From NCBI GenBank assembly GCA_007693605.1, contig REDG01000051.1, forward strand, positions 1 through 64,000: a stretch of 64,000 nt of DNA. The letters are read 5' to 3'. The notes beneath the pieces are model-generated. The model was not told where the DNA came from. It searched no databases and saw only the letters and a list, made by a program, of their open reading frames with translations. This DNA comes from Bradymonadales bacterium. Lineage in GTDB: Bacteria; Bdellovibrionota; UBA2394. This document shows, piece after piece, positions 46,667-52,559 of the stretch; positions within the stretch are counted from its first letter, which is position 1, and the number at the start of each line of letters is the position of its first letter. A program made the position numbers and the translations under genes.

Positions 46667-46690
46667 GCTTTCTGGAATTCAAATCCATCA

Positions 46691-46722
46691 CTAGTGGTTC
46701 AACCGGTAAATTTTTTCATGTT
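46691..46722 (+). repeat. Dispersed repeat with 56198-56230, copy 1
   Basis: Reads ctagtggttcaaccggtaaa then ttttttcatgtt; only about four differences from the copy at 56198. It lies 25 bases after the stop of acyl-CoA dehydrogenase 3. Confidence 0.75.
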
Positions 46723-46756
46723 CTGAATCAAGATTTTGCTTCGAATCAAGGCGGGG

Positions 46757-47278
46757 CTAGCCGTCGACCAGAGCCTTTTCAAAAATTTCGTCAATGAAGA
46801 ACTGGGTCTTTGCGGGTATCCTCGCCTTTGGATAGTATTCCTGAATCACTTGGTAAACTTTCTCTGGCGACCGTAGGCCTAGAAACGAAATCAGGAAAAT
46901 GACATCATCTCGATCAGAAGTGTCCCATCTCGCACTAATTGTCTTCATGGCCAAAAGATAGTCTGCCTCAGGCGTCCAAACCAGAAGATGATCAAACTCA
47001 AAGAGAATTCGTTTTTTCGGCACTGGGACCATAAAGGCTTTTGCGGCGTCATTCAGCCAATCATCGGACAAAGAGTTCTCTTCAGCAACTTCCTTCGCGG
47101 CAAGACGCACTTCACTGCTTGGCTCAAAAACGCCATCAACATCTTTTGTTGAGGCCCTGGCTTTAAAGGCTAGGCACATGGCTGCCCCGCCAACGATCCC
47201 CAGTTCTCCCCGAATGTTTTTTCTCTTTAGGATATTCGAAAGCTGTCTCAGATAATTCTTTATCTCATCCCTTTCCAT
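46757..47278 (-). CDS. DUF6036-type nucleotidyltransferase-like protein, candidate toxin partner
   Basis: A 173-residue nucleotidyltransferase-fold protein. The hallmark Gly-rich turn and metal site appear as 'LGIVGGAAMCLAFKARAST' followed by 'KDVDGVF', i.e. GG and DxD. This resembles DUF6036/AbiEii-like proteins. It starts two bases after the stop of the HTH protein, so the pair forms one unit. The C-terminal part ('EADYLLAMKTISARWDTSDR') is typical of these proteins. In related pairs the nucleotidyltransferase is thought to modify tRNA or the partner; not shown here. Start ATG 47278. Confidence 0.8.
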   Translation of the reverse strand: MERDEIKNYLRQLSNILKRKNIRGELGIVGGAAMCLAFKARASTKDVDGVFEPSSEVRLAAKEVAEENSLSDDWLNDAAKAFMVPVPKKRILFEFDHLLVWTPEADYLLAMKTISARWDTSDRDDVIFLISFLGLRSPEKVYQVIQEYYPKARIPAKTQFFIDEIFEKALVDG

Positions 47279-47280
47279 GT

Positions 47281-47844
47281 TTAGGCCCTTTCAAAAAAGT
47301 TTTCTAAAATGAAAACATTCTTCATCTTAAAGCGAGCAGGGGATTCTAAAATGGCTGAAGCCTTCAAAGATTCGATGCCAGAAACAAACCAGGGCTGAGA
47401 AAGCGGTGCTGCATCTAAAGCCCATGCTGGCGGGGAAAATTCACTGCGATGACAGAGCTCTAGAACAATGGCAGAAATCAAGGCTTGGAGGCGTGGATTC
47501 AAAGCTCGGACAGGCGGAGTGATAAGAAGCCTTGCATCTTTGGTTCTTAGAAACTCATCAATGAGATTGAAGAAATGCAGCTTCCATGAGTCTTCCCCCT
47601 CTTGTGAAACGGCCAGGGAAACCACGGGCACGGAGTATCGGAAATCGGCCTTTGAATTCTTCAAATATTCAAAAAGCTCCAGCTCCCGATGAGAAGCCTG
47701 TGCTATCTTTTTCAAAGTCTTCAGGCTGGCATTTCGTTCCCCTTCCTTGATGTGACGAAGGGTCGTTCGAGAGATGCCCGCCAGTCGAGCCAGCTCCCTT
47801 TCCGAGACCTGATGCAAATTTTTGTTATTGTTCAAGTTTCTCAT
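47281..47844 (-). CDS. HTH transcriptional regulator, candidate antitoxin of the nucleotidyltransferase pair
   Basis: A 187-residue protein with an N-terminal helix-turn-helix of XRE type (about 10-65: 'SERELARLAGISRTTLRHIK') and a C-terminal domain ('LLITPPVRALNPRLQALISA') that I recall from regulators paired with DUF6036 nucleotidyltransferases. The start ATG at 47844 touches a 22-bp perfect palindrome. No Shine-Dalgarno is visible because the palindrome occupies that position. It is the first gene of the pair, likely autoregulated. Confidence 0.8.
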   Translation of the reverse strand: MRNLNNNKNLHQVSERELARLAGISRTTLRHIKEGERNASLKTLKKIAQASHRELELFEYLKNSKADFRYSVPVVSLAVSQEGEDSWKLHFFNLIDEFLRTKDARLLITPPVRALNPRLQALISAIVLELCHRSEFSPPAWALDAAPLSQPWFVSGIESLKASAILESPARFKMKNVFILENFFERA

Positions 47845-47864
47845 GGTACAATATATTGTACCAT
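47843..47864. promoter_or_regulatory. 22-bp perfect palindrome, probable operator
   Basis: Half-site atggtacaata followed by its exact reverse complement tattgtaccat. It ends at the start codon of the HTH gene and touches a promoter-like -10 hexamer (47863-47868), so a dimeric regulator bound here would block transcription. A perfect 22-bp palindrome is not expected by chance. Confidence 0.85.
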
Positions 47865-47892
47865 TTTATGGCTTAGGGCACAAGGCTGTCGA
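47863..47892 (-). promoter_or_regulatory. Probable promoter of the HTH/nucleotidyltransferase pair
   Basis: On the minus strand: -35 TCGACA (47887-47892), 18-base spacer, -10 TAAAAT (47863-47868); each hexamer differs from consensus by one base. The predicted transcription start falls inside the palindrome, leaving a leader of only about 10-15 bases, so the mRNA would be leaderless or nearly so. Confidence 0.6.
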
Positions 47893-47908
47893 AACTGTCC
47901 GCCATGCA

Positions 47909-47934
47909 AGGGGAGTGTCGCCAATGGCTCCCTT
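47909..47934. repeat. Intergenic GGGAGTGTCGC-family repeat copy (hairpin)
   Basis: Plus strand aaggggagtgtcgccaatgg then ctccctt. gggag and ctccc make a stem with a 12-base loop. It begins at the stop codon (47933-47935) of the membrane protein gene on the minus strand, acting perhaps as its 3' hairpin. Confidence 0.6.
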
Positions 47935-48733
47935 AAGCTCGGCGGCTTGGGTGCTGGTACCAAGCTCGAACCTTCCGGTCTTTCGGATACTTCTTTTGGA
48001 GTAGGTTTTCGACGGCCTCCATTTTGCCGTCTGAGGGAATCCACTCTGCTAGGTCGGGAAAGTCCACTCGACAGTTTTCACAATGTTTATTTTCGTAAAA
48101 CCGAATGGGACACCAGAAGCTTTCATTGTTGCGAACCATTTCTCCCCCCAGAGAGTAAACACCGGCAGCCCACTCGCAGTACAAACACCAAAGGAGATCA
48201 ATCCCAACCAGACCTTGAAACTTATGCCGAGAAACTTGAATGAAGTCAGAGTGTATGTAGCGAGGAAAGCCCAGAGAAAATTGCAATAGGGGATACAGGA
48301 AGATTTGTCCGAAACGGACCACTAAAAAACAGGGAAGGGCCAAGAGGGTAAAGTAGAAGCCTGCGAGAACTTTGACGGTGCCGACCGATGAGCCAAGCAC
48401 CTTGAGCAAGCGACCCCCTTGAGAGCCTGACCGAAGATAAGCCAGCCAAGAATGAATGCGGCAAAAGATCGCCAGATAGATCGACTGAGTGACAACAGAC
48501 ACGAGAAATCCGGCGATGCCCATATACAATGCGCTGAACAAAGGCGGCAGCCAAACAAAGACAGCGACCCAGAAGTCTAGAATGGGCACTTTACGAAATC
48601 TTTCAGCTAACGAATTGGATTGAAGACCGAGATAGAGGGCGAGCGTATTCCCCAACAGCCACAAAAAAATCCACAGCGCCCACTCGACCTGGTCTGACCA
48701 TAATGAATGCAATGCTTCCAAGAACACCCCCAA
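47933..48733 (-). CDS. Conserved membrane protein of unknown function with Cys-rich C-terminus
   Basis: A 266-residue protein with about four membrane helices in the first 160 residues, then a soluble C-terminal region rich in Cys and aromatic residues: 'WCLYCEWAAGVYSLGGEM', 'FWCPIRFYENKHCENC' and 'VDFPDLAEWIP'. The two CxxC pairs suggest a metal site. I have seen similar proteins in other proteobacteria but no function is known to me. The TTG at 48733 or the GTG two codons later is the start; no strong ribosome site is visible. Confidence 0.7.
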   Translation of the reverse strand: MGVFLEALHSLWSDQVEWALWIFLWLLGNTLALYLGLQSNSLAERFRKVPILDFWVAVFVWLPPLFSALYMGIAGFLVSVVTQSIYLAIFCRIHSWLAYLRSGSQGGRLLKVLGSSVGTVKVLAGFYFTLLALPCFLVVRFGQIFLYPLLQFSLGFPRYIHSDFIQVSRHKFQGLVGIDLLWCLYCEWAAGVYSLGGEMVRNNESFWCPIRFYENKHCENCRVDFPDLAEWIPSDGKMEAVENLLQKKYPKDRKVRAWYQHPSRRA

Positions 48734-48831
48734 AGCTCATTTGAGCAGAAAACTGAGAAATGTAAATCTTAAGTCTGTGATGAGTCGGGTTTCATTGGGG
48801 GTGTTAAAGAGATGCTTTGAATGAGCCCCCA

Positions 48832-49638
48832 TCACTGGTGATTTTCGAGTTCCTGCTTCAGAAAGCTGCGGATCTGCTCTTGATAAGTCTCTTGTAGAAG
48901 AAACTGATTGTGACCCATGGATTTAAATGCGACCAGTTTCTTGAGGTGAGGAAGCTGAGCGGCCAGTCTTTTGCTGGAGCTTGGGGGGACCACTTCATCT
49001 GTCTCGCTGAACAAAACAAGGCTTGGGGCTTGAACTCGCGGGGCCCAATCAATTGAGGGGAATGGGTGCCGAAGCAGGAGTTTCACCGGAAGCCAGGGGT
49101 AGTGTCTTCGAGCGATGTCGACCAGACTCGCGGCAGGGGCTTGTAGAATGAGGCCCGCACTTTGAATTCGTTGCGCAGCCACCCAAACGGCCACCGAACT
49201 TCCGATCGATTCTCCAAACAAAAAAATGGGCCCTGGCGATTCAGACTCGATGAGGTCGAAAACCTCCAGTCCGGCTCGAAGAAAAGCTTCTTGAGAGGCC
49301 TTTCGACGAGGCTCTCCGCCATAGCCCGGGTATTCAAGAAATATGAGATTGAGGGGAAGCCCTTCCAGGACTTCCGAAAAGAAGAGTCGATCGCAGGCAG
49401 AGCCCGCATTTCCGTGAAAATAGATCAGGCTTCCCTCAGCGCCTGCTTGCTGTCGATGATAGAAACGAACTTCATTCTGTTCGACAGCCACAAAGGAGTA
49501 GCTCTTGGCCTCCGAGCAGTTTCCAAATGTGGAACCAAAGCTCTGAAAAATGAGAAACTTCTGAAGCAGGAACAGCAGCAAGCATAGCCCCAGCCAAACA
49601 GAAAAAATCAAAACGGCAACTCGAAGGATTGAATTCAT
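48832..49638 (-). CDS. Alpha/beta hydrolase with N-terminal membrane anchor
   Basis: A 268-residue protein. One hydrophobic N-terminal helix ('VAVLIFSVWLGLCLLLFLLQ') anchors it, followed by an alpha/beta hydrolase domain. The nucleophile elbow is 'FGESIGSSVAV' (GxSxG), the acid is in 'ETDEVVPPSS' and the His in 'MGHNQFLLQ'; 'YFHGNAGSACDRLFF' is the oxyanion site. It resembles the ABHD13/BEM46 or FrsA-like lipase group. Probably faces the periplasm. ATG at 49638, divergent from the sigma-like gene. Confidence 0.88.
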   Translation of the reverse strand: MNSILRVAVLIFSVWLGLCLLLFLLQKFLIFQSFGSTFGNCSEAKSYSFVAVEQNEVRFYHRQQAGAEGSLIYFHGNAGSACDRLFFSEVLEGLPLNLIFLEYPGYGGEPRRKASQEAFLRAGLEVFDLIESESPGPIFLFGESIGSSVAVWVAAQRIQSAGLILQAPAASLVDIARRHYPWLPVKLLLRHPFPSIDWAPRVQAPSLVLFSETDEVVPPSSSKRLAAQLPHLKKLVAFKSMGHNQFLLQETYQEQIRSFLKQELENHQ

Positions 49639-49709
49639 TGAAGCTTTTCTATCACTTTTGGGTGTTTCGGCGAAAGGCCGGAGCGGGACTTCGGTGACCG
49701 CCGTTGCGA

Positions 49710-49749
49710 CAGCCCGTGGGCAAGCGATCGCTGTGCCCCCCTCGGGCTG
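49710..49749 (+). other. Structured hairpin in the divergent spacer
   Basis: Outer arms cagcccg (49710-49716) and cgggctg (49743-49749) form a 7-bp stem; within it gggca and tgcccc can pair and the tip is the 8-base palindrome gcgatcgc. It lies in the 49639-49861 spacer between the divergent hydrolase and sigma-like genes. It may be an RNA structure in the 5' leader of one of them, a repeat remnant, or a small RNA; no T run follows. Confidence 0.45.
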
Positions 49750-49861
49750 GACTGAGCCAGCTCCTTGAAATGATTGATGATTAGGCTCTTATATTGGACT
49801 TGCCAGAGGGGCTAAAACTCGGCTTGGGTCAGGTACGATTCTTGCGAATCTCATAGGGGTG

Positions 49862-51409
49862 ATGGTGGTCAGGCGTTTCCATATCGCGATTTTTGCTCTC
49901 GCTTTGGGTCTATCGACTTTTTTGGCGCCAGCTTCTTTGCGTGCTGATATCTGCAGGACAGTGACCGAGATATTGGCAAACAAGCTGACGGCGGATGCCT
50001 CGCCAGGAAATAAAGGAAGATTGCGGTTCATGGATTTGTTCAGAGCTTTGGGCCTGGAAGGCTCTGACACTCTTCACGAAGCTAAAAATAAAAGTCCTAA
50101 AGCGGTCAATCAGGAAGTCGAGAGCATTCAAAGCTCGGAGATTGCTCCCCGGATTTTAAGGATGGAGGCTCTTGAAGAGCAGATGCTGAGGGAGATTTCA
50201 AACGCGTACAATTCATTGTCAAAGTCAGAGAAGGAGAGGCTGAAGGCTTCTAAAGAGAAGGAGGCTTCTAATCTTCAAAAGGGTCTTTCGCTCGAAGCTT
50301 CACGAAAGGAGCGAGTGCGGGCGATCATGGCGGCAAACCTTGAGTTTCCGAATTGGTTTCAAAGTAAAGAAATGAGCGAAGCCTTTGATGAGTGGAGAAC
50401 TTTAGAAACGGAGCTGCTGGACTTGATGATGGGCTATGTCACCACCCTGGCGGCCAGGTCCGTCAGACCAAACCGACCGGATGATTTTGCAGACGCTCTT
50501 CAAGAGGGAGCGATGGCGGCCGTAGAGGCGATTCGAGCTTATGAAGTTTCAAGTGGCTTCAATCTAACCACCCTTCTGCACCCATATGTTTCAAAAAAGT
50601 TGGAGAGTTTAGGGGTCTCAGGACTGAGACAACGAGAGGCAGGCTATCTTAAAGCCCCTGAGCTAGAGTGGCTGGCAGGCTTTCATGAGGAGTACGGGCG
50701 CGACCCATCTTTTGAAGAAATCCGCTTCGAGTTTCCGAAGCCTGTTCAACACAACAGAATGTGGGACCAAATCAGGACGGGTCAGCAGCGAAACTCTCGT
50801 TCTCTCTTTGTGCCCGATCCCGATGGGGGATTTCGACTTCGGCCCTTGAGCGATCCTTCCGTGGAATCTCCTGGCGTTCAACGGGAGAGAATCGAGCTTC
50901 TCGATCGTTTACTCAGTGAGATCACCAAGCACGAAGAGGCCAATCAATTTGTCATGTACTATCGATTGAAGTGGGGCGAAAGACTGCAAGAAAATAGTCG
51001 AGGGGAAATCATCCCGCAATCCCTTTTGACCGATGAGCAAATTCAAGAACAACTAGGTTTTAACAATCGACAAAACCTTGAGCACTTTTTAGATCGAATG
51101 CAGTACAAACTTTTGGTCGTCTCTGCCTTTGACTCTCGCCCCGATCTGTTTAACGAAGTGGATAAACAGGTAGTTTCTCGAAAGTATGGTCTCTTTGGTG
51201 TGGGTGCGATTCAGGCGAGAGCTAATCCCAAGTCTCTGGCAAAGGAGTTGGGATTAACAGAAGAACAAGTGAAAGAGAGTTTACTGAAAGTCCAGTCTTG
51301 GATCATTGCCGAAGGTCATTTGTTTTCTAGAAAGCAGCTTTTGAGTTTTCTTCCCGACGATCTGAAGGAAGCCTTCGAGACTCTCTCGGGGCCTTCGATC
51401 AGGGAGTGA
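49862..51409 (+). CDS. Sigma-70-like protein with an apparent N-terminal signal peptide
   Basis: A 515-residue protein. Residues 1-29 look like a cleavable signal peptide: basic MVVRRFH, hydrophobic 'IAIFALALGLSTFLAPAS', site near SLRA/D. At about 185-245 there is a sigma region 2-like segment ('DFADALQEGAMAAVEAIRAY' and 'SSGFNLTTLLHP'), at 269-290 a region 3-like one ('AGFHEEYGRDPSFEEIRFEF') and at 341-415 a region 4-like HTH ('LTDEQIQEQLGFNNRQNLE'). Aromatic melting residues of region 2.3 are lacking. A second in-frame ATG (50030, residue 57) has an aaaggaag site 11 bases upstream and would omit the signal. Monocistronic, divergent from the hydrolase. Confidence 0.7.
   Translation: MVVRRFHIAIFALALGLSTFLAPASLRADICRTVTEILANKLTADASPGNKGRLRFMDLFRALGLEGSDTLHEAKNKSPKAVNQEVESIQSSEIAPRILRMEALEEQMLREISNAYNSLSKSEKERLKASKEKEASNLQKGLSLEASRKERVRAIMAANLEFPNWFQSKEMSEAFDEWRTLETELLDLMMGYVTTLAARSVRPNRPDDFADALQEGAMAAVEAIRAYEVSSGFNLTTLLHPYVSKKLESLGVSGLRQREAGYLKAPELEWLAGFHEEYGRDPSFEEIRFEFPKPVQHNRMWDQIRTGQQRNSRSLFVPDPDGGFRLRPLSDPSVESPGVQRERIELLDRLLSEITKHEEANQFVMYYRLKWGERLQENSRGEIIPQSLLTDEQIQEQLGFNNRQNLEHFLDRMQYKLLVVSAFDSRPDLFNEVDKQVVSRKYGLFGVGAIQARANPKSLAKELGLTEEQVKESLLKVQSWIIAEGHLFSRKQLLSFLPDDLKEAFETLSGPSIRE
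50012..50019 (+). promoter_or_regulatory. Possible internal ribosome site for a short form of the sigma-like protein
   Basis: aaaggaag lies 11 bases before the in-frame ATG at 50030. If used, translation would begin after the predicted signal peptide and yield a cytosolic protein of 459 residues. This alternative decides whether the protein is exported at all. Confidence 0.4.
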
Positions 51410-52559
51410 ATATTTTCTGATCGAGTTTAAAGCCTGAACGACGAGCCTCCTCTAGAAAGCTTGGGAGCTCGCCCGTTGGCCGGTGCTTGACTCGGGCTTT
51501 GGCGCCTTCCTTTTGTTCCAGAATTTCTAAAACAAAGAGATCTCGGATGTCGTAGTTTCCTGACTCATCCAGGCCCACCAGTTCTGAAACATGAGTCAAT
51601 CGGCGGCTGCCGTCGCGAAGCCTTGAGGCCTGAACAATAATTTGAATGGCATTGGCAATTTGACTTCGAATGGCAATCAGAGGCATTTCGAGTCGGTTCA
51701 TCATAATTAAAGTTTCAATTCGTGAGATCGCTTGCCGAGGGTTGTTGGCGTGAAGGGTGGACATACTTCCGGAATGGCCGGTAGTCATGGCCTGTAGGAG
51801 GTCCAGAGCCTCGGGGCCCCGAACCTCTCCAATCACAATCCGATCGGGTCGCAGTCGCAGCGAGCTTTTAACGAGATCTCGAATATCGACCGTCAACTTG
51901 TCACTATGAACGCTCTCCATGCGGAGAACATGTTCTTGCTGAAGTTGAAGCTCTGAGGCGTCTTCAATCACCACGATTCTTTGGTCGGAGGGAATAAAAC
52001 TTGAGATCGCGTTGAGCAGAGTGGTCTTTCCGGAGCTGGTGGAGCCTGAAACGATTAGGTTTTTCTTCAGTTGAACACAGACATGAAGAAAGCGAGCCAT
52101 GTCGACTGACATCGCGCCCACCTTCACCAAGTCTTTAACTTCTAAGGGCACATCGCCAAACTTTCGAATGGCCATATACACCCCATCTTTGGCGCAAGGC
52201 GGGACGACAATATGAATTCGACTGCCGTCGGGCAATCGAGCGTCCATGACGGGGTTGAGTTCATCAATTCGCCGGCCCACAAACTGGGCCACATTTCTCG
52301 CTGCTGCAAACAAAGCGTCTTCATCGGCGAAGGCTGTTTCGGCTCGAATCAGCTTTCCCTTGCGCTCGATATAAATCTCGTCGGGTGAATTGATAAGGAT
52401 TTCGGTTACACTGTCGTCGTCCAAGAAGTCCAAAATAGGACCCAAAAAGCTCCGAGTCGTGTCGTTTTCGATCAAGGCCACAAGCCCATTATAACCCCTT
52501 TTCTGGGCCTGACGCTTGGCACAGGCTTTGCATTTCTTAAGGAATGCCCTGGGGGCCAT
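51399..52559 (-). CDS. cpaF: CpaF/TadA-type secretion ATPase
   Basis: A 386-residue secretion NTPase. The N-terminal part 'LDFLDDDSVTEILINSPDEI' is typical of CpaF. Walker A is 'GSTSSGKTTLLN', Walker B lies in 'RIVIGEVRGPEALDLLQAM' and the sensor His in 'STLHANNPRQAISRIETL'. Such ATPases power Tad pili or related machines. The ORF start ATG at 52559 adds a Cys-rich MAPRAFLKKCKACAKRQ; the GTG at 52481 would match shorter relatives and leave 79 bases to the TPR gene start at 52561. No other pilus genes are in the window. Its 3' end overlaps the sigma-like gene by 11 bases. Confidence 0.9.
   Translation of the reverse strand: MAPRAFLKKCKACAKRQAQKRGYNGLVALIENDTTRSFLGPILDFLDDDSVTEILINSPDEIYIERKGKLIRAETAFADEDALFAAARNVAQFVGRRIDELNPVMDARLPDGSRIHIVVPPCAKDGVYMAIRKFGDVPLEVKDLVKVGAMSVDMARFLHVCVQLKKNLIVSGSTSSGKTTLLNAISSFIPSDQRIVVIEDASELQLQQEHVLRMESVHSDKLTVDIRDLVKSSLRLRPDRIVIGEVRGPEALDLLQAMTTGHSGSMSTLHANNPRQAISRIETLIMMNRLEMPLIAIRSQIANAIQIIVQASRLRDGSRRLTHVSELVGLDESGNYDIRDLFVLEILEQKEGAKARVKHRPTGELPSFLEEARRSGFKLDQKIFTP

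Follow-up and report, generated by a model that had tools for sequence, protein, structure and literature searches.

The gene at coordinates 49,862-51,409 on the forward strand of the window, the 64,000-nucleotide stretch of DNA analysed here, encodes a protein of 515 residues that resembles sigma-70 factors and begins with a predicted signal peptide. Sigma factors act on RNA polymerase, which is present only in the cytoplasm, and the locus raises the question of what such a protein would do on the other side of the membrane. We compared five genomes of the family, one per genus (G000 to G004, all of them MAGs), of which G000 holds the window. The presence of leader-bearing sigma-like proteins in all five suggests that this lineage, related to bacterial predators, exports proteins of transcription control from its cells and may deliver them into other bacteria. 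UBA2394 is listed as a class-level lineage of the Bdellovibrionota (PMC8265224).

The reading frame is intact from the ATG at 49,862 to a stop codon that ends at 51,409, and in-frame GTG codons also lie at 49,859 and 49,865. The Shine-Dalgarno-like sequence AGGGG (49,855-49,859, forward strand) stands 2 nt before the ATG and 5 nt before the GTG at 49,865; scans for promoters and terminators gave nothing above chance level. The leader, MVVRRFHIAIFALALGLSTFLAPASLRA (49,862-49,945, forward strand), has a charged n-region (MVVRR), a charge-free h-region of 12 residues with a mean Kyte-Doolittle hydropathy of 2.32, and a cleavage-like end in which LRA is followed by DIC. Leaders were judged here by simple rules (hydropathy, n-region charge and an AxA-like end) and not by a trained predictor, and by these rules the classical n/h/c signal sequence that a sequence-only reading of the locus had described is confirmed. 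The AxA-like rule places the probable cleavage after residue 28, so that the sole cysteine of the protein, Cys31 (49,952-49,954, forward strand), would become mature position 3. A lipoprotein reading was rejected, as there is no lipobox ([LVI][ASTVI][GAS]C) at the cleavage site; the window protein has ADIC, and in the set of leader-bearing proteins described below the cysteine lies 2-8 residues past the AxA-like end.

The cysteine is followed by an N-terminal extension (49,955-50,356, forward strand) that has no family match and is mostly helical in a low-confidence model, and then by the sigma part. The NCBIfam model TIGR02937 matches residues 198-481 (E=7.2e-8, 32.2 bits) and the Pfam model Sigma70_r2 matches residues 203-241 (E=0.004, 17.2 bits); because both matches fall below the curated cut-offs, of 42.9 and 24 bits respectively, the protein is by its profile matches a divergent relative of the sigma-70 family and not a textbook member. 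Alignment to RpoD, an RpoH/RpoS-like sigma factor and FliA of the same genome shows that the region 2.2 motif DxxQEG is retained, as DALQEG, in the region 2-like segment (50,402-50,611, forward strand), where RpoD has the core-binding DxIQEG. The region 3 helix EEYGRDPSFEEI is recognisable, and the region 3-like segment as aligned to RpoD, LEWLAGFHEEYGRDPSFEEIRFEF, occupies 50,663-50,743 (forward strand). The sigma motifs and the region 2, 3 and 4-like order first claimed for the protein are thus present, the similarity being real but weak.

The C-terminal part contains two region-4-like helix-turn-helix (HTH) segments. The first (LTDEQIQEQLGFNNRQNLEHFLDRMQYKLL; 51,026-51,115, forward strand) aligns with region 4 of RpoD and FliA, and is the one that had been named as region 4 from its motif 'LTDEQIQEQLGF' (residue 389 onwards); it stands as an additional region-4-like HTH, whereas the segment that profiles support as region 4 comes second, at approximately residues 440-484 (KYGLFGVG...SLAKELGLTEEQVKESLLKVQ; 51,179-51,313, forward strand). 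Weak Sigma70_r3 and HTH_10 matches cover residues 453-484 of this second segment (Sigma70_r3 E=0.018, residues 454-484), and the TIGR02937 match ends within it at residue 481. The promoter-melting aromatics, thought at first to be absent, are mostly but not entirely lost, with Y-V-F-L-L-P-Y aligned to F-Y-Y-F-Y-W-W in RpoD of the same genome. Structure prediction, proposed earlier as a check on the fold, was run with AlphaFold2 on single sequences without an alignment and left the fold unconfirmed; neither model, one of the mature chain and the other of residues 169-314 (pLDDT 44 and 45), was usable for fold search.

BLAST-type searches of 369 genomes of the phylum recovered no recognisable orthologue of the window protein; the matches obtained were spurious, either to housekeeping RpoD (E from 1e-4 to 3e-3) or to a DNA ligase-like frame. 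A DNA-pattern scan of genome contigs with the window protein gave no match, and a phage origin was set aside when tblastn found no match in 50,697 phage records. We therefore searched by sigma domain and not by whole protein, using Sigma70_r2 and TIGR02937 in the five family genomes and reading the open frames of the hits. This revealed ten sigma-domain proteins with a Sec-type leader, distributed among all five genera of this GTDB UBA2394 lineage and non-orthologous. In addition to the window protein, G000 encodes C59a (in C59, on L020; 353 aa, downstream of efp); G001 contains L082 (539 aa), L086 (452 aa) and L137 (431 aa, region 4 only); G002 has L085 (780 aa) and L075 (355 aa), G003 has L083 (245 aa), and G004 has L084 (341 aa) and L087 (1259 aa).

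Seven of the ten exceed a Pfam sigma cut-off. The region 2 cut-off is passed by three siblings (L082, L083 and L084), and a region 4 HTH is detected in L075 (8e-14), L083, L084, L085, L087, L082 and L086. L083 is a complete ECF sigma factor whose sigma part matches sigma-E in the PDB at 7.6e-14, and the C-terminal end of L087 is a complete RpoD-like sigma factor that contains LTRERVRQI and matches SigB/RpoD in the PDB at 6e-22 to about 1e-21 over regions 2-4. A third sigma-like frame of G000 (C59, L020:12620-13114) is N-terminally incomplete at a contig end and does not enter the counts; since its region 4 HTH carries an unusual insertion that is also present in C59a (L020:2837-3895; LIRLNDGKGM and LRVNGGHSL), the two look like paralogues.

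For comparison we used 57 canonical sigma frames, 20 from the family and 37 from 12 phylum genomes that represent 11 other families (of the 61 Sigma70_r2 hits in these genomes 37 were scored, those unscored being mainly RpoD). The best uncharged N-terminal 12-mer reaches a mean hydropathy of 2.0 in nine of the ten leader-bearing proteins versus none of the 57 controls, although the leader set was picked by reading and this is accordingly a contrast between groups and not a blind test. The exception is L087, whose leader is marginal, with a D that interrupts the hydrophobic run. No leader was seen in the 37 canonical frames of other families or in the 20 of the family itself, and within the survey, which extended to the 12 outside genomes, leader-bearing sigma proteins were found only in this family. 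A check on whether relatives share the leader has thus yielded no orthologues, yet confirms leader-bearing sigma-70-like proteins, at the level of predicted products, as a recurrent class in this lineage.

The ten proteins also share an early cysteine, at predicted mature position 2-8, and seven of them have no other. Of 92 further soluble proteins that were predicted as exported, in approximately 0.86 Mb of sequence read mostly from G001, 18 have a Cys within mature positions 1-14, a contrast with ten of ten that is significant by Fisher's test (P=6e-7). The bodies of the ten are Cys-depleted, with five cysteines in 4885 later residues compared to 31 expected at the exported-protein frequency (Poisson P=8e-9). 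The early cysteine is presumably a functional residue (an anchor, a disulphide or a second-step signal) in chains that otherwise avoid cysteine, and the combination of leader and lone Cys offers a search rule for more exported proteins of this kind. Taken together, the sequences support the export architecture well, and the sigma-fold protein is very probably exported.

The surroundings of the gene contribute little to its interpretation. An alpha/beta hydrolase gene (48,832-49,638, reverse strand; Pfam PF12146) lies on one side and a CpaF/T2SSE-type ATPase gene (51,399-52,559, reverse strand; PF00437, 7e-56) on the other, as the sequence-only reading had noted; the comparison with relatives does not support a role for either. 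The hydrolase is missing at this place in relatives and is not part of the system. The ATPase is 72-77% identical in G001-G004 and, with a TPR protein (35-47%) and an acyl-CoA dehydrogenase cluster, forms flanks that are kept in the four other genera; however, the slot bounded by the acyl-CoA dehydrogenase cluster on one side and the CpaF-like gene on the other (window 46,667-51,398) contains different genes in each of the five. The CpaF-like protein was rejected as a functional partner, since the flank is conserved and the content between the flanks is not. A frame of 558 aa with leader and Cys, which occupies the syntenic position in G001, was considered as an orthologue and dismissed, having no sequence relation to the window protein, which identifies the slot as variable. 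In G001 and G004 the slot includes unrelated exported proteins with a leader-plus-Cys start (L014:6245-7921 and L013:7799-8890). In the window it also contains (46,757-47,844, reverse strand) two genes that by eye resemble a toxin-antitoxin pair, one for an XRE-like HTH protein of 187 residues and one for a protein of 173 residues that is nucleotidyltransferase-like; the pair is absent at this place in relatives.

Other proteins of cytoplasmic type carry the same start. Two methyltransferases of G001 (PF05175, 2.6e-9, and PF13649, 4e-6; L127:7488-8633 and L118:11277-12125) each have a Sec leader and a single Cys near the mature N-terminus; a possible GNAT-like protein of this genome (L122:18971-19492) has no Pfam hit. 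A three-gene run in G000 (C42, L179:3535-14531) and G004 (C66, L181:2642-10617 with L084:5430-8645) encodes a PrkA-like kinase, an AAA protein of 1790 residues that starts with a leader, and, with leader and Cys, a SpoVR-DUF444 fusion. The exported PrkA-like kinase has a leader, PF08298 and PF06798 matches over the cut-off, an intact Walker A motif and one Cys in more than 800 residues. In G003 (C259, L180) the SpoVR-DUF444 part is present, interrupted by a stop, and leaderless ordinary PrkA and SpoVR genes are located elsewhere in most of the family genomes. A search with a SpoVR-DUF444 alignment identified long frames similar to the exported fusion in 28 of 369 phylum genomes from many families, and in eight of nine further loci that were read, these eight coming from as many additional genomes, the frame starts with a leader followed by a Cys, the ninth being cut at a contig end. 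Because such homologues occur across the phylum and the sigma type was found only in the family, the exported-regulator theme is probably older and wider than the sigma proteins. G001 also has a cluster of exported proteins (C1:137702-159289; L105:17702 to L106:19289) to which the leader-plus-early-Cys start is common.

We favour, with a probability of roughly 0.45 for the explanation as a whole, an exported sigma-70 derivative that acts on the transcription of another cell. The window protein would be made with a Sec signal peptide that exports the sigma part, and would be one of several regulators of cytoplasmic type of which this clade has exported copies (sigma factors; a PrkA kinase, AAA ATPase and SpoVR-DUF444; methyltransferases), all with a leader and then a nearly unique Cys close to the mature N-terminus. 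As the partners, substrates or cofactors of sigma regions, Walker-A ATPases and SAM methyltransferases are present only in a cytoplasm, the likeliest workplace would be the cytoplasm of another cell, either prey or neighbour, and as the parent families are bacterial regulators that cell would be a bacterium. There the window protein would bind the RNA polymerase core via region 2 (DxxQEG) and block or misdirect promoter opening, which seems likelier than starting transcription given that the core-binding part is kept and the melting residues are mostly lost; L083 and L087 are better preserved and could act as true sigma factors. The sequences themselves show the sigma similarity, the leader, the lone Cys, the recurrence in five genera and the siblings of cytoplasmic type; we infer cleavage, release from the cell, a second membrane crossing, the target cell, RNA polymerase binding and the role of the Cys, and another cell's transcription as the target is, taken separately, a tentative assignment. 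The non-orthologous and scattered distribution of the repertoire, as is seen in effectors, argues for this explanation, and the phylum includes Bdellovibrio-like predators. B. bacteriovorus itself secretes proteins through Sec leaders (PMC12622784).

Could the leader be an artefact of annotation, with translation from the ATG of codon 57 (50,030-50,032, forward strand) or later giving an ordinary cytoplasmic divergent sigma factor, or with both starts used? The ATG and the purine-rich AAGGAAG upstream of it (50,013-50,019) are present as reported, and although the sequence analysis gave no evidence that this start is used, a shorter form is possible for the window gene taken by itself. However, AGGGG precedes the ATG at 49,862 and the GTG at 49,865, ten proteins have a leader and a Cys at a like distance, and chance hydrophobic starts are absent from the controls. 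Moreover, three of the ten (L137, C59a and L075) lack a start codon between the leader and approximately codon 45, so that in these the leader does not stem from a wrongly chosen start, and a leaderless form would need a start beyond that point. The idea of two forms is weakened accordingly, with codon 57 of the window gene still a possible start, and we consider the artefact the least probable of the explanations. Scarcely more probable is that the leader tethers a latent sigma factor of the producer to its membrane, the protein acting in the cytoplasm of the producer itself, once regulated proteolysis has freed it or through partial cytosolic retention. This would account for the conserved sigma residues of the siblings and has a precedent in pro-sigma-K, a transcription factor that associates with the membrane and is cleaved by SpoIVFB (PMC11486902), but the positive n-region and AxA-like ends predict, from charge distribution only, an N-in, C-out topology with cleavage that leaves the sigma part outside. 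A Cys by the cleavage site and Cys depletion elsewhere are features of exported chains, and unrelated proteins carry the same type of leader.

Export alone is also consistent with a sigma fold repurposed for the producer's own envelope, in protein-protein or extracellular-DNA binding or in a periplasmic or surface structure, never meeting RNA polymerase; reuse of the fold in a non-transcriptional role would give the same sequence picture. The leader and Cys put the protein outside the cytoplasm, the melting residues of the window protein are mostly lost and its sigma fold is recognisable only in part, and no second translocation signal is known. Nonetheless, the complete canonical regions of siblings such as L083 (ECF sigma) and L087 (RpoD-like) would be unexpected in a structural role, and the ATP- and SAM-dependent cores retained by other exported siblings would be without cofactor in the periplasm. 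We regard an envelope role as rather unlikely, if more credible than a tether. More speculative than the reading we favour for the window protein is its extension to the lineage, in which sigma factors, the PrkA/AAA/SpoVR-DUF444 module and methyltransferases would be secreted into other bacteria and the sigma factors would take over or poison the RNA polymerase of the victim. The occurrence of sigma proteins with export signals in every genus of the lineage implies either a sigma fold that works outside the cell or the delivery of transcription factors from one bacterium into another; delivery, if true, would be a new attack mode and a testable answer to how a predator seizes the gene expression of its prey.

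With the sigma-70 family (RpoD, FliA and ECF factors; PF04542/PF04539/PF04545, TIGR02937) the window protein shares the region 2, 3-like and 4-like order and DxxQEG, and its siblings include complete regions 2-4; it departs from the family in that it begins with a Sec leader, has a single Cys, carries a long helical insert ahead of region 2 as well as tandem region-4-like HTHs, and has lost most melting aromatics. In Bacillus, the extension of pro-sigma-K is not a signal peptide of Sec type with an AxA site and a Cys, and pro-sigma-E is a membrane-tethered latent sigma factor and a precedent of the same type. Pro-sigma-K is similar as a sigma factor with an N-terminal membrane-associating extension (PMC11486902), but acts in the producer's own cytoplasm. 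The PrkA-YeaH-YcgB (SpoVR) stress module, encoded in B. bacteriovorus by the operon bd0228-bd0231 (PMC5430801), is the parent family of the exported PrkA/SpoVR set; its ordinary form is cytoplasmic, whereas here a second, leader-bearing and fused copy stands beside it. The open-access literature searched contains no precedent for a 'secreted sigma factor', and the sigma fold is thus a known one in an exported form that appears to be without precedent, apart from an analogy to the sigma factors of plant plastids. The plastid proteins use eukaryotic organelle import and a transit peptide, unlike the Sec-type leader of a bacterial genome, and the likeness is one of analogy. Like the window protein, however, plastid sigma factors such as AtSIG6 begin with a targeting sequence that can be cleaved off and are variable in their N-terminal region, and they serve a bacterial-type RNA polymerase in a compartment other than the one where they are made (PMC2988416).
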